A DNA stretch of 54,964 nt from Candidatus Thalassarchaeum betae (lineage in GTDB: Archaea > Thermoplasmatota > Poseidoniia > Poseidoniales > Thalassarchaeaceae). The stretch's first letter is position 1. Every line of letters begins with the position of its first letter. The notes under the pieces are model-generated. The model was not told the DNA's origin, did no database searches, and saw only the letters and a list, made by a program, of their open reading frames with translations. Location of the stretch: positions 1-54,964 of the forward strand of contig PSPG01000011.1 of NCBI GenBank assembly GCA_003193925.1, written 5' to 3'. The position numbers and the translations under genes were made by a program. This document shows positions 1 to 6,186 of this stretch, one piece after another.

Positions 1-2
1 TT

Positions 3-440
3 ATCGGAGTATTTCGCCTCTCCAATAATAAACTTGCATCAGGCCTAGCCACAACTTTCGTCGAATTCTTCAGGAATATGCCTCTAGTTGCCCTGCTCTT
101 CATGAGCGTCATCGTTTTTGGCAAATCGATGCCATTGCTCTCTACTGAACATAATCTGTTCGGGCTGATATTTTACAGCAACAGAGCGGTCTATGTTCCT
201 GCTGTAGTTCTTGAGAATCTTGGAATGCTTATTCTCGGCATAATCATCTATCTCGTAGCGAAGCGTTACACGAAGCATCTCGATGCCGATGGATTTGACG
301 ATTCAAATGAAGGATTTTACCGAAGAATAGGATTCTGGGCTGGTATCGGTTCTGTTCAATCCCTTCGCTTCAGTCTTGGGTTCGATTCTAGAACCATTAG
401 GCCTGTCTGCCTTTTCGATAAGCATCCCCGAGATCGATAA
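3..440 (+). CDS. amino-acid ABC transporter permease, AapQ-like, N-terminal part (5' cut, frameshifted)
   Basis: This is the N-terminal part of an inner-membrane permease of the polar/general L-amino-acid ABC importer family. The open frame runs in from the window edge, and the segment before the first Met (ending FVEFFRN before MPLVALL) matches the usual permease pattern of a TxxxExFRNxPL stretch, so the gene begins upstream. Several hydrophobic segments follow. The frame loses its family character after about position 350 and stops at 440, while the next frame carries the rest of the same protein, so this is one gene broken by a frameshift between roughly 331 and 375. The break may be real or a sequencing error. 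A substrate-binding protein gene (AapJ-like) would be expected just outside the window. The region is AT-richer than the bulk of the window. Confidence 0.75.
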   Translation: MGVFRLSNNKLASGLATTFVEFFRNMPLVALLFMSVIVFGKSMPLLSTEHNLFGLIFYSNRAVYVPAVVLENLGMLILGIIIYLVAKRYTKHLDADGFDDSNEGFYRRIGFWAGIGSVQSLRFSLGFDSRTIRPVCLFDKHPRDR

Positions 441-912
441 ATATCGTGGCTTCGATGACATACGACCTACTGGGGCTTGGATCTATGTCGGGGGCATGGT
501 GATCACTCCTCCATTCTTGACTCTGATGATCGGGCTCACGCTCTACACCAGCGCACTCATTGCTGAGATAGTCCGTGGTAGTATACAAGCACTTGACCGT
601 GGTCAAGTGGAGGCTGCTATCTCTCTCGCCTTGACTCCTTTCCAGCGCCTCCGTTTGGTGATCCTCCCTCAGGCTCTGCGCAGCATGATTCCCTTGATGA
701 CGAATCAATATCTGAACATTTGGAAAAACTCTAGCTTGGCTCTGGTCGTTGGTTACAGTGATTTCTTCTCGATCCTCTGGACCATTGTCAACAAGGAAGG
801 CCAAGGCGTACCTGTGTTCATGATCATTCTGCTGACTTATCAATGTGGGAGTCTGCTCATGTCTGCAATAATGAATTCCTACAACCGTAAGGTTACGAGG
901 GTGAAGATATGA
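376..912 (+). CDS. amino-acid ABC transporter permease, AapQ-like, C-terminal part (frameshifted)
   Basis: This frame holds the C-terminal half of the permease that begins at the window edge. It contains the cytoplasmic EAA loop (EAAISLAL, then a PQALR segment) that contacts the ATPase, followed by the NQYLN and KNSSLA segments typical of AapQ/GlnP/HisM permeases. The listed start is a TTG inside the gene and not a true start; homology-like sequence begins slightly upstream in this frame (from about 350), and an in-frame TAG at 328-330 limits how far back it can go. The stop codon overlaps the next start as ATGA, which shows translational coupling with the second permease. Confidence 0.75.
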   Translation: MGSILEPLGLSAFSISIPEIDKYRGFDDIRPTGAWIYVGGMVITPPFLTLMIGLTLYTSALIAEIVRGSIQALDRGQVEAAISLALTPFQRLRLVILPQALRSMIPLMTNQYLNIWKNSSLALVVGYSDFFSILWTIVNKEGQGVPVFMIILLTYQCGSLLMSAIMNSYNRKVTRVKI

Positions 913-2396
913 TTGAGGCATGGAAAGCGAACCCCGATCTCGCCCGCAGGAGGTTGATTGACAACCTCGTCGGTAAGCCTCCAGCATACCTCGCCGATAG
1001 AGGCGAGAAAGCCTCATTCTTCCTATCGATATTCCTTGGTCTAGCAGCTGGCGTATTGAGTGTGAAAAACATCTTCGACAGATATGGCGGTGGAGAAACA
1101 CCTCTGATTAACCTCCTATTATATTCAACGATGATGTTCATATCGTCTTCGATTCTCGTCATGGTTATCACGTTGGCCGTAACGCGGGGGAGCATCTTCC
1201 TCGGTCGCCCAAATGCCATTACCAGTGTCATCTCAGTTCTGGTTTTACAGAATGTAGTAGAAGCCGTCGGCGGCTTCGTCCTCATCTCTGCTAATTGGGA
1301 TGTCATCTGGGCAAATCGTCAATTGTTGATGTTTGGTCCACATTTGACAAGTCATCCAGAAGAATTATGGCGATTTTGGCTAGTTGCTTTCCTTATTGGT
1401 GGCGCTTATGGTAGCCTAGGTGAATCCCGTCTGAAATTCCTCATTCCTTTCACTCTTTTCGCATTGATATCTCTCCTCATTCTCTACAATCCGAATCATC
1501 GAGGCTACGACTACGAATCCACCATGGTCAAGTTGTCAATGGCATTTGCGGTAACCTACATCTCTTTCCTCATCACTCATAAAAAATTAACAGGTGCTGA
1601 TGAATATTTGATTGTCAGATTCCACCGTTGGCTGACGATTACCGCGGTAATCACATTCTTTGTTGCTCTATTCACACTCGACCCACCTGGTGATGATATC
1701 ACGTTCGCTTCGATGGAAATTACTGGCGTTCCACCCTCTCTATGGGGTGGATTCGTGATGAATGTCCTCGTTGCCACAGCTGGTTGTGTTCTTGGTTTTG
1801 GACTTGGGATCGTCCTCGCTTTTGGTCGGCGAAGCAATTTGGCGGCGTACCGATACCCGAGTACTGCAATCATAGAATTGATACGCTCAGGACCTTTGGT
1901 TGCTTGGTTATTCATCGCATTTATTCTGTTACCCGATGTACTGAATCCAATTTGGGAATCCGATGTTGTTATGAGAATGATTCTGATTATCTCGATCTTT
2001 GGTGGTTGCTATGGCGCAGAGATCATTCGCGGTGGCTTGCAAGCGGTACCATCCGGCCAAATCGAAGCAGCCACCGCTCTTGGTTTGAGCAACATGCAGA
2101 CGAAATTACTCGTCGAATTACCAAATGCAATCAGAACCACTCTACCAACAATTGTCAGTCTTTTCATCGGTCTATGGAAGGACACTACTCTCCTTTATCT
2201 GCTAGGTGTTCATGAAATGTTCAATCTCTCAACCCTAGCGCTCACACAACAGAAGGAATTCCTAGGTTTAACACGCGAAACTCTAGTTTTCGCTGGAATG
2301 GCATTTTGGATTATTGCCTTCTATCTATCACGCATCTCACTCCGAATCGAGTCCGGTTTAGGGCTTGGTCATGAGGGTGGAGGCGAAGCAACATGA
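909..2396 (+). CDS. amino-acid ABC transporter permease, AapM-like
   Basis: This 495-residue integral membrane protein is the second permease of the amino-acid importer. The N-terminal ~270 residues hold several extra hydrophobic segments, and the C-terminal ~210 residues are the standard HisM/GlnP permease domain with the EAA loop [13 protein letters not shown] and the LWKDTTLL segment. This long two-part layout matches AapM of general L-amino-acid transporters rather than a short GlnP. It overlaps the upstream permease and the downstream ATPase by four bases each (ATGA), so the three genes form one operon. Composition is AT-rich (the line at 1561 is about one third G+C), unlike everything after about 2830. 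Substrate range cannot be read from the sequence. Confidence 0.88.
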
Positions 2397-3139
2397 GTGA
2401 AGAAGAAGTGATTATTGATGCAAAAGGCGTAAGGGTTAATTTCGGTGATTTTTGGGCATTGAAAGGAATTGATATCGAAGTGAAGAAAGGTGAGATTATC
2501 GTTATTCTCGGGCCGTCAGGATCTGGTAAGTCCACATTCATTCGTACATTGAATCGTCTCCAGCCACATAGTGGGGGTACTATCGTTATCGATGGGATCA
2601 CAATCGATGAGGAAACCAGTATCGCGGACATGAAGTATGTTCGTTCCGAGATTGGTATGGTATTCCAGCTATTCAATCTCTTTCCGCACTTGACCGTCCT
2701 TGAGAATATTACTCTAGCTCCTATGAAGGCGAAGGGGATGACTCGCGAAGAAGCCGAAAAAATTGCTCATAAGTTGCTTGAGCGCGTAGGGATTCCTGAA
2801 CAACATCACAAGTTCCCGAGTGCACTATCCGGCGGTCAACAGCAGCGCGTAGCAATCGCGCGCGCGCTGGCCATGGACCCGAAGATAATGCTCTTCGACG
2901 AGCCGACCTCCGCCCTCGACCCCGAGATGATCAAGGAGGTTCTCGATGTGATGATTGACCTCGCGAAGCGCGACATCACGATGATCGTCGTGACCCATGA
3001 GATGGGCTTCGCCAAGGAGGTCTGTGACCGAGTCATCCTGTTCGACGAGGGCGAGCTGGTCGAGCAGAACACCCCCGCCGAATTCTTCGATAACCCGCAG
3101 CACAAGCGCACCAAGCTGTTCCTAGAGCAGATCCTCTGA
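2393..3139 (+). CDS. amino-acid ABC transporter ATP-binding protein, AapP-like
   Basis: This 248-residue ATPase drives the amino-acid importer from the cytoplasmic face. Walker A is GPSGSGKST (residues 40-48), the Q-loop is near 92, the signature is LSGGQQQR (145-152), Walker B with the D-loop is [12 protein letters not shown] (about 165-176) and the switch histidine is near 202. Length is normal for the GlnQ/HisP/AapP family. It starts by an ATGA overlap with the AapM-like gene. The oddity is compositional: up to about 2820 the gene is AT-rich like its operon, while from about 2830, within the signature motif codons, it becomes strongly GC-rich like the rest of the window. The reading frame is intact across the switch, so it could be a recombinant gene or a chimeric assembly join. 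Confidence 0.92.
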
Positions 3140-3203
3140 TTTCTCCGGGGCTTCCCTCTGGCTGGGCGCTACCCTATTGAGCCGCCATGGCAGGCCCTGT
3201 GCC

Positions 3204-4088
3204 ATGAGTTGCCTCAGTGAGCTGCCGAACAACGTCGAGCCGACCTACGCCTGCGCCTCGGAATTAATGGGGACGGGGCCGGTTTCTGCGCTGCTGATAA
3301 TCGTCATCGGAATCCCCCTCATCAAAATCGCCAAGAGATACCTCAGGAAGCTGTTCGACAGGACCGACTTCGACGAAGGGCTCGAGAACTTCATGTTCCG
3401 CATCGCCGGAGTCACGATGTGGGCGCTAGTGATACTGACAGCCACGAGCGAGCTGGGCATCAACGTCACTGGGATCGTAGCCGCGCTCGGCATCTTCGGG
3501 CTTGCTGTCGCCTTCGCCGCCCAGGACACGATGGAGAACGTCATCGCTGGCATCTTCATCATTGTCGACAGGCCGTTCCGGGAAGGGGAGCGCATCCTGC
3601 TGCCCAAGAAACTGGGGGGCATCTACAGCAGCTGGGGCGACGTCAAGCAGATCGGCCTGCGGACCACGCACGTGCGTTCCACGGACGGGGTGATGCTGAC
3701 CATCCCGAACAAACTGCTGACCAAGGACCCCGTGGCGAACTTCAGCCATCGCAGCGACATGGCGCTGCGGGTGCGCATACGCATGGGGGTGGCTCCGACA
3801 TGGGCCAACGTCACCAAGGCACAGGAGATAGTCGAGGACATCGCCGCGAACCACCCCGACATCTGCCGTGAGCCGAAACCGCCCGAGGTGGTGCTCCGGG
3901 ATTTCGGACCGCACGAGGTGATTATGGAGATTCGCTACTATGTCGATAACGCGAGGAAGATGCGCCCCTCGAAGTCATTCTTCGTAACCGAGATACTCCG
4001 TCGCTTCGAGGAAGAGAGCGTCTCGCTGTCGCTCCCCGTCTTAGTCAACATGAACAGCGACGTCGATCTCGAGGACCTCGGTTTCTAG
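3204..4088 (+). CDS. mscS: small-conductance mechanosensitive channel, MscS family
   Basis: This 294-residue membrane protein belongs to the MscS family, which opens under membrane tension to release solutes during hypo-osmotic shock. Two N-terminal hydrophobic segments are followed by the pore-lining helix region (GIVAALGIFGLAVAFAAQDT, roughly residues 86-105), then a beta domain and a C-terminal alpha/beta domain rich in charged residues. ATG at 3204 is preferred to an upstream TTG at 3177 because the nine extra residues have no family character. It is a stand-alone gene between the ABC operon and the converging NAD kinase gene. Confidence 0.9.
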   Translation: MSCLSELPNNVEPTYACASELMGTGPVSALLIIVIGIPLIKIAKRYLRKLFDRTDFDEGLENFMFRIAGVTMWALVILTATSELGINVTGIVAALGIFGLAVAFAAQDTMENVIAGIFIIVDRPFREGERILLPKKLGGIYSSWGDVKQIGLRTTHVRSTDGVMLTIPNKLLTKDPVANFSHRSDMALRVRIRMGVAPTWANVTKAQEIVEDIAANHPDICREPKPPEVVLRDFGPHEVIMEIRYYVDNARKMRPSKSFFVTEILRRFEEESVSLSLPVLVNMNSDVDLEDLGF

Positions 4089-4100
4089 GGGGAGTAGTAA

Positions 4101-4991
4101 TCAGGCGCGTATCCAGTGTGCCACCCCATCGTGGATGGTGCTGCGGAAGGTCAGTAGTCGCAATGTCGGCCCGCCAAGGTCGACAGTCACCCTCGCACCT
4201 CTGGTGAAGTGGGTCTCGTCCCAGCCGTCGCTGACGATGTAACCGCGGTGCATGTCGCTGGTCATCACAGTCGGCTCGCTGGTCCAGGCCCAGTACGAGC
4301 CGTCGTCCTCTCGCTCCTCGCGCGGTAGGTCCCTGGATACGAACAGGTACCACCCGTTTACCTCGTTCATCGGGAAGGCGGCCCCTTCGATGTCGACCAC
4401 GTGGCGGAACCAGGCTCCTTGGCCGAGGAAGGTGGAGAACAAGCAACCCGAGGACCTCTGGATGACATCGATCTCGCCGTAGTTGCCGTCGGGCACTCTC
4501 TGTAGCCTGTACCTCGATGGCTGGTACTGGTGGGTGTTGGCGATGATCAGGTCGTTGAGCGCCGGGTCCGAGAGGACCGTCTTGCCGCTGGTGGTGACGA
4601 TCTCGGCCTGCAGCCTAGGCAGGACGTTGACGATGGCCCCGCCGTCCAAGGCCGAGCGAACGTCATCGGCGAAGTGCTTCGGGTCGCTTCCCATGTAGAA
4701 GCCGTACGAGCCATCCTCGTCGTCGTCACGGGGATGGCTGTTGACGCCCATGACAGGGGTGTCCGAGTCTATCGAATGGGCGATCGAGGTGAGGGTGCCG
4801 TCGCCGCCGAGGATGATGACCAGGTCGCGTCCGACGAAGTCCTCCCTGTTGACTGTCTCGCGCGCCTTGTACGAGATGCTGGTGCCCCTGGCGCTGACCA
4901 GTTCATCGAGTGCGTCGCGCACCGTGGCCAGGGCCTTGTCGTGGACCTCCTCGAAGTTCTTCTTGTAGACCACGAGGACGTCTGGGGGCAT
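4101..4991 (-). CDS. nadK: NAD kinase (ATP-NAD/AcoX family)
   Basis: This 296-residue protein would phosphorylate NAD to NADP. The diagnostic GGDGT motif sits at residues 62-66 (IILGGDGTLTS), and a later NDLIIAN segment fits the conserved NE/D region of the family. ATG at 4991 is chosen over longer in-frame starts because it is preceded by AAGGAG with about nine bases of spacing and because the upstream residues look non-coding; a TATATG element lies near 5033-5038. The C-terminal third (after about 190) is more divergent than in bacterial NadK. It converges on mscS with a 12-base gap and diverges from the lipoprotein gene. Confidence 0.85.
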   Translation of the reverse strand: MPPDVLVVYKKNFEEVHDKALATVRDALDELVSARGTSISYKARETVNREDFVGRDLVIILGGDGTLTSIAHSIDSDTPVMGVNSHPRDDDEDGSYGFYMGSDPKHFADDVRSALDGGAIVNVLPRLQAEIVTTSGKTVLSDPALNDLIIANTHQYQPSRYRLQRVPDGNYGEIDVIQRSSGCLFSTFLGQGAWFRHVVDIEGAAFPMNEVNGWYLFVSRDLPREEREDDGSYWAWTSEPTVMTSDMHRGYIVSDGWDETHFTRGARVTVDLGGPTLRLLTFRSTIHDGVAHWIRA

Positions 4992-5118
4992 TGCGGCACG
5001 CTCCTTCGCAGACTTCCCTCTGTGGATGTCCCATATAGGCGCGACGCACGGTGGAACGACCTGATTCAACTGACCGCTGTCGCATAGACTCATCACCCCC
5101 GCGCGCTCGCGGGAGGGC

Positions 5119-6186
5119 ATGAGAAGCGCGATATTGGCTGCACTGCTCGTCCTCGCTCCGCTCTCAACAGGCTGCCTCGTGGTCCCCATCGATCCTTGCC
5201 CTGAGGGAGACTGCTTCCCCTTGGGCTCGGCCGCGCTGTCTGAGCTTCTGTCGGGCCCAGACGCCTTCGACGTGCTTTCCTACGCCGAGGACTTCGAGCG
5301 GCTGAGGGTCGAGACCTCGACTGTCTATGAAAACCAGGGCCAGAGCGGAGAGATCCACTGGAGCGTGGCCAAGGACGACGATGCCCAACTGCGGTCTATC
5401 GCGATGAGGCTGACGATTGGGACCTCTACCATCGACACCGAGGTCATCGAGGGACAGCGGGCCACCAATGTCAGGATCGGCGACGACTGGTACGAGGGCC
5501 GCGACGCGATACCGCAGTACACGGACCCGTTCGAGGAGATAGCCAAACTCGCTTCGGAGCAGCCTAACGGCCTGTGGCCGCCGTTCGGCTTCGATACGGC
5601 CTCGATCGCAGACCTAGACTGGACCATCACCGGCGATCCCCTCTCCCTCCAGCAGATCGCCTCCGCCTCCAACGCGACCCACACCATCATCATCGAGCTG
5701 ATGGGCGCGCCCCCGATGATCACCGGCATCGAGACCTACTCCGGGGATGACCAGCAGTTCACCCTCAGGGTCACGACGGGGGATGCGGTGAGCCTAGCGC
5801 TGCAGGAAGGTCTGCCGCGCACCCCCATCGAGTTCAGCCTCGAGGCAGCTCCCCTCCAAGACGGCGACCTCACCGTCTGGGCAGGTGGAGTGCCCGAGGG
5901 TCTGACCGCGGAGGTCGACCCGGCCGAGTTGGAGTTCCACGGATTGTCGGGTACGGGGGAGGATGCGACTTCGGTCGCTTCGATGGCCTTCGATGTCGAG
6001 TACTCCAACGTCACACTGAACGACGGCACTTGGTGGGAGTTCTCGTGGTCCGACTACGTGGTGGACGGCTACGTCTCAGGAGGAGATTTCTACCAGATTC
6101 GCACTAACGCCACCGGGGAGTTGAACGTCGCGATATACGACCTCTGGGCGGAAGCGTGGACCGGCGGCCCGCTGCAGGGCTCCTGA
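5119..6186 (+). CDS. putative lipoprotein of unknown function
   Basis: This 355-residue protein begins with a lipoprotein-type signal peptide: positively charged start, a hydrophobic stretch, then LSTGC with the candidate lipidated cysteine at residue 19. The mature part is acidic and lacks further membrane segments, so it is probably anchored outside the cytoplasmic membrane. The pattern of short beta-rich stretches (for example TIGTSTIDTEV, then NVRIGDDWYEG) loosely recalls LppX/LolA-like or other ligand-carrying lipoproteins, but no family is recognised with confidence. It sits 52 bases upstream of an ABC exporter gene that appears to have its own promoter, so a shared function is possible but not shown. 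Confidence 0.7.
   Translation: MRSAILAALLVLAPLSTGCLVVPIDPCPEGDCFPLGSAALSELLSGPDAFDVLSYAEDFERLRVETSTVYENQGQSGEIHWSVAKDDDAQLRSIAMRLTIGTSTIDTEVIEGQRATNVRIGDDWYEGRDAIPQYTDPFEEIAKLASEQPNGLWPPFGFDTASIADLDWTITGDPLSLQQIASASNATHTIIIELMGAPPMITGIETYSGDDQQFTLRVTTGDAVSLALQEGLPRTPIEFSLEAAPLQDGDLTVWAGGVPEGLTAEVDPAELEFHGLSGTGEDATSVASMAFDVEYSNVTLNDGTWWEFSWSDYVVDGYVSGGDFYQIRTNATGELNVAIYDLWAEAWTGGPLQGS

Follow-up and report, generated by a model that had tools for sequence, protein, structure and literature searches.

Base composition within one ATPase gene

How does a single intact gene come to be AT-rich over its first part and GC-rich over the rest? The question arises near the start of the DNA analyzed here, a stretch of 54,964 nucleotides (the window) that makes up the whole of contig C8 of genome G000, a MAG of 1.48 Mb and 92% completeness. 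The genome belongs to genus g1 (genus labels g1 to g11 are anonymous), and is most closely related to archaea of the order Poseidoniales (Marine Group II). The gene in question, at 2393-3139, encodes an ABC ATPase and is intact, with 248 codons. A preliminary description had placed an abrupt and lasting switch in base composition on the codons of its LSGGQQQR signature, and had offered two explanations: homologous recombination had replaced the upstream transporter at this conserved block, or an assembler had joined two genomes there.

The G+C content was 46.7% upstream of the gene, 44.1% over codons 1-143, 59.7% over the remaining part of the gene and 62.3% over the next 3 kb. A 500-base profile showed a step at 2500-3000, with G+C near 0.45 before it and 0.60 after it, and no later return to low values. 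GC3 within the gene was 41% for codons 5-84, 49% for codons 85-145, 85% for codons 146-219, and 90% for codons 220-248, a rise from about 45% to 85-90%. The best single breakpoint fell after codon 154 (window position 2854; breakpoint range 2839-2854). Its log-likelihood ratio was 27.3, while 500 permutations gave no more than 10.0 (p=0.002, the lowest value that this number of permutations allows), and the position of the step coincided with the signature. The composition step within the ATPase gene is real, and its location, abruptness and persistence were as first described.

We considered whether the step could arise with no foreign DNA involved, simply from the codons or amino acids that the conserved ABC signature/Walker B region uses. 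The coincidence with LSGGQQQR would fit this, as would the smaller rise seen in some g9 genomes, which reaches up to +22 GC3 points. However, the GC3 step (codons 146-219 minus codons 5-145) was +40.5 points here, compared to a mean of +2.7 in 59 relatives (s.d. 7.7, maximum +22.4), with composition even along the gene in most relatives; the step is therefore not normal for the LSGGQ region. In the three carriers of the allele described below, it ranged from +29 to +41. Furthermore, it is the third positions that differ, and from one segment of the gene to another the nearest relatives switch genus. Codon bias of this region was ruled out as the cause by the comparison with the 59 relatives, and an explanation without foreign DNA is scarcely credible.

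The same allele in two other assemblies

A family-wide DNA search returned two further contigs with this operon allele, G198:C47, from a MAG filed under g7, and G043:C7, from a MAG filed under g4. DNA identity to the window was 93-94% for G198:C47 (over 1-3052) and 97% for G043:C7 (over 2645-3052). The GC-rich tract had a GC3 of 85% in the window, 85% in G198:C47 and 81% in G043, and in G198:C47 it lies with AT-rich DNA on both sides. Since the step is common to G198:C47 and G043, the step at about 2840 came with the incoming operon, and since AT-rich DNA flanks the tract in G198:C47, it represents an older scar that the operon brought along. A join made by a single assembler at 2820-2850 cannot explain a step that is found in two other assemblies at 93-98% DNA identity; that half of the preliminary proposal is effectively excluded. 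A host junction at 2820-2850 was also rejected, because the GC-rich tract is common to G198:C47 and G043.

The ATPase gene is made up of three segments, not two (2393-2827, 2828-3046, and 3049-3139). As interpreted here, the features of the window are:

1..912, + strand: 3' part of an AapQ-like permease gene, foreign cassette (ORFs 3-440 and 376-912; BPD_transp_1)
348..404, + strand: complex frame-shifting indel in AapQ (57 bases compared to 41 in G198:C47)
909..2396, + strand: AapM-like permease gene, foreign cassette (BPD_transp_1 at residues 296-474)
2393..2827, + strand: ATPase codons 1-145, AT-rich foreign segment (GC3 41-49%)
2828..3046, + strand: ATPase codons 146 to ~218, cassette-borne GC-rich scar tract (GC3 85%)
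3046..3049, + strand: junction between cassette and host (179 informative sites)
3049..3139, + strand: ATPase 3' end, native to genus g1 (89.7% DNA identity to G005)
3177..4088, + strand: gene for an MscS-type mechanosensitive channel, native flank (Pfam MS_channel)
4101..5189, - strand: NAD kinase-like gene, native flank (named from its protein sequence, not from a database hit)

A comparison of the ATPase segments by best match, as had been suggested, showed that the nearest relatives change genus along the gene. The first segment was 94.6-95.4% identical in DNA to G198:C47, with the next best match (G043 aside) at 79%. The second was 98% identical among the window, G198:C47 and G043, and about 85% or less identical to all others, while the top seven matches of the third were six g1 genomes and one g7 genome. 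AapM shared 94% amino acid identity with G198:C47 and at most 59% with any other relative. Between the window and G198:C47, dN/dS was 0.22 for AapM and 0.10 for the ATPase, and this purifying selection indicates that the allele works or worked recently.

The window and G198:C47 carry a near-identical cluster (94% DNA identity over 3 kb) in divergent genomes with unrelated flanks. Over 745 bases, the downstream flank of G198:C47 matched that of G050 (genus g11) at 94.8% identity, so that this contig probably comes from a g11 genome and was placed in the wrong bin. Its permeases were only 0.31-0.45 identical to those of G050; as aligned, G198:C47 and G050 have near-identical flank DNA and different transporters. 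G198 carries its own operon on C20, separate from C47. None of the sampled genomes represents the donor lineage.

The junction with the host genome

To place the switch from cassette to host, G198:C47 was used as the cassette reference and G005 as the g1 host reference, giving 179 informative sites. Up to 3046, 153 of 157 sites were cassette-like (153:4), and from 3049 on, 20 of 22 were host-like (2:20), with p<=2e-4 for the switch. The host junction is located approximately 200 bp downstream of the composition step, and base composition does not change at it. Homologous replacement of the upstream transporter, as offered in the preliminary description, is supported; its placement at the conserved block does not hold for this genome, given that the step there is inherited and the host junction lies at 3046-3049. 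The other carriers have switches of their own, at 3073-3082 in G043 and 3072-3089 in G198:C47 (each p<=2e-4). Both fall within the final 70 bp of the ATPase gene, and the two genomes provide further genus backgrounds for the allele.

Downstream of the junction, the comparison with G005 gave 0.88 for NAD kinase, 0.81 for the lipoprotein and 0.92 for the exporter. The nearest relatives of the NAD kinase-like gene were all of genus g1, and the MscS gene (3177-4088) showed 89% amino acid identity to its counterpart at the same place in G005. Past the junction, the remaining ATPase, MscS and NAD kinase are native to genus g1.

A chimera could also arise at this second position, if the AT-rich operon of another population had been joined to a g1 contig within the ATPase gene, so that no cell carries the combination. 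The window is a contig end, AapQ has a frame-shifting complex indel, and all three allele carriers are cut short in or near the cassette, as seen from the starts of the window and of the G043 contig (the latter within the shared block) and from the length of G198:C47, a contig of 6.2 kb. These points favor a chimera. However, the composition step itself was found in two other assemblies, and at the junction the cassette version has exact runs of only 2-15 bases in common with the native one (12 g1 sequences), which is short for a k-mer join; the longest exact shared run in the 3' part of the ATPase gene is at most 23 bases. In addition, the family-wide swap pattern described below holds in long contigs and in a probable single-cell genome. 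We give the chimera a small chance, and an assembler join at 3046-3049 appears unlikely. A second, native AapM was not found in the G000 assembly (92% complete).

The frameshift in AapQ, which had been said to make a join worth testing, is real: compared to G198:C47, whose AapQ homologue is intact (710 aa), 18 bases are missing and 33 are extra at 348-404, a net change of +16, with BPD_transp_1 present in both. As a mark of a join between two genomes it does not serve, since it lies about 2.6 kb from the junction and within the foreign segment. The 33 extra bases gave only short-word matches among the fetched relatives. The frameshift may have been introduced by the assembly, or it may be a recent lesion.

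Gene order and the left side of the locus

Throughout the family, the operon codes for a binding protein, two permeases and an ATPase, with the 16S rRNA gene on one side of it and the NAD kinase gene on the other. The conserved order runs from ribosomal proteins, SecY, 16S rRNA, binding protein, AapQ, AapM and ATPase through a variable gene (MscS, thioesterase or none) to NAD kinase, lipoprotein and exporter. The slot between ATPase and NAD kinase holds MscS in g1, G043 and G028, and a thioesterase in G032, G050, G070 and G025; it is empty in most others. In the other Poseidoniales family, the operon was absent or only distantly matched, and aapJ has likewise been reported as missing or distant there (PMC9723583). 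On this ground, the family of the window is probably Ca. Thalassarchaeaceae.

Because the contig of the window starts within the cassette, the left junction and the binding-protein gene are outside the window. The 16S gene of G000 is at the end of contig C9, and a search for the binding protein of this genome did not find it, as expected if it falls in the gap between C9 and C8. The 16S gene on C9 is cut by the contig end, its first part being about 26 bases short (792 aligned bases, compared to 818 in most relatives). The contigs of many relatives break at the 16S rRNA gene beside the operon, approximately 5 kb upstream of the ATPase, and of 148 genomes only 45 gave any 16S match. On G032:C25, an archaeal 16S rRNA match aligned to the G000 16S at only 66-73% identity, over short stretches; this is possibly a foreign contig or an unusual 16S gene.

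Exchange of the operon between genera

For the genes of the locus, we counted how often the nearest relative belonged to the same genus. This share was 0.92-1.00 for the ribosomal proteins and SecY (SecY, 28/30), 0.76 for the binding protein (32/42), 0.65-0.66 for the permeases (AapQ, 33/51; AapM, 45/68), 0.77-0.85 for the parts of the ATPase (54/70 to 65/77), 1.00 for both NAD kinase (71/71) and the lipoprotein (67/67), and 0.96 for the exporter. The permease tallies mix partial genes, and the clean comparison is a paired test on one AapM domain. Here, AapM was foreign and NAD kinase native in 12 of 61 genomes, and the reverse was seen in none of the 61 (exact sign test, ~5e-4), with NAD kinase matching its own genus in 61/61 genomes.

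The AapM tree contained several deep classes cutting across genera, and near-identical pairs were found across genomes (G057b/G202 and G159/G187, with AapM or AapQ at 0.96-0.98). G085 (152 kb contig), G058 (282 kb contig) and G159, which is probably a single-cell genome, each have a native SecY, a foreign binding protein and permeases, and a native NAD kinase, all on a single contig. G085 and G058 have kept native 16S genes, which places the left junction between 16S and the binding protein, or within the binding protein. Alternative versions of one function occupy the same locus across the family, with the neighbors unchanged and, in G000, with one copy replaced in place. The exchanges seen are between genera, not between strains of one species (>96% ANI). 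At the level of sequence, the comparisons demonstrate replacement in place and right-hand junctions within the ATPase gene, and the pattern is best read as an amino-acid transporter cassette that is overwritten repeatedly between Poseidoniales genera, via homologous recombination.

The trees had suggested that the g9 clade contains independent recombinants; triplet tests with g4 and g1 parents were mostly not significant (1 of 8 at p=0.005), and we do not propose such recombinants. In G156:C1 (g4), SecY, L18 and L30 were nearest to g1 (SecY, 0.93 compared to 0.85 within g4) and the 16S rRNA was 98.1% identical to that of G005 (g1), with the operon and NAD kinase mostly g4-like. In this genome, the 16S side itself may have been replaced, or the contig may have been joined at 16S.

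Proposed origin of the cassette

We consider it very probable that the first 3.05 kb of the window are a foreign allele of an AAP/PAAT-type amino-acid operon, which overwrote the native one via homologous recombination at a locus exchanged across genera. Homology for the right crossover would be provided by the conserved ATPase gene, and for the left crossover by the 16S rRNA end or the upstream part of the operon. Two rounds would be the simplest account of a three-part ATPase gene: recombination in a GC-rich host would first have placed a crossover near codon 146, and onward transfer would then have moved it to codons 218-231. We infer that the GC-rich tract records this earlier stay in a GC-rich host; its best matches outside the carriers are only 84-85%. 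The effect would be a new binding protein and new permeases, with one operon copy and with the host's ATPase end and downstream genes kept. The ATPase 3' end could even be a reusable docking site for a binding protein/permease set that travels between marine archaeal genera. Every transfer would displace the junction in that gene, and nested segments of differing base composition would record an AT-rich source, a GC-rich intermediate and the present host, an extension that we hold to be evenly balanced.

The neighborhood of RNA genes is a common integration site, and this position, together with the foreign composition, could suggest that a mobile element (integrase, transposon, virus or plasmid) delivered the entire operon to its place beside 16S rRNA, with no homologous recombination. 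However, the same genes were replaced at the same place and not added, and the junctions are within the homologous ATPase gene. By inspection, no integrase or transposase was recognized among the gene clusters around the locus. The AapM peptides had no match in the 2.9 million viral contigs of IMG/VR, and viral carriage was rejected on this ground. Arrival on a mobile element is very improbable, and replacement by homologous recombination is the reading we keep.

Should overwriting of the operon across genera be routine, a single step could alter the substrate range, and phylogeny would not predict it. This region, 16S-linked contigs included, can also mislead gene trees and binning that rely on it. 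With the junctions mapped, the process is testable in long-read data.

Relation to known systems

No paper on this transporter locus was found in a literature search of incomplete coverage. The proteorhodopsin "overwrite" of Ca. Poseidoniales (Rinke et al. 2019; PMC6461757) concerns the same order and is also a single-copy gene replaced in place by a horizontally acquired version, possibly via homologous recombination. That case involves one gene, with junctions unmapped in the text consulted, whereas here a four-gene operon has junctions in the ATPase and brings an older junction with it. Replacement flexible genomic islands (Lopez-Perez et al. 2014; PMC4033161), which include a SAR11 island beside the rRNA operon, similarly have alternative cluster versions at one locus and homologous recombination in conserved flanks. 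However, those are surface-structure clusters, typically at >96% ANI, whose versions have little or no common sequence, while the present case is an uptake operon with homologous versions (AapM ~55-65% across classes) and exchange that crosses genera. The locus is a further member of such replacement systems, set apart by its intergeneric scale, its uptake-operon cargo and its junctions in a cargo gene.

As in a PAAT/AAP-type importer, SBP_bac_3, BPD_transp_1 permeases and an ABC ATPase were found in one operon (Pfam, above cut-offs), the SBP_bac_3 binding protein being seen in G198:C47; in G000 it would fall in the gap before the window. The AAP (general L-amino acid)/PAAT transporters described for Poseidoniales (PMC9723583) share SBP_bac_3, BPD_transp_1/HEQRo permeases and a GlnQ-like ATPase. 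The operon studied here differs in that no NCBIfam equivalog cut-off was reached, so that no specific substrate is assigned (best ATPase match, GlnQ, 300.7 bits compared to a cut-off of 379; best binding protein match, TIGR01096, 91.4 compared to 256), and in that its permeases have long extra N-terminal regions.
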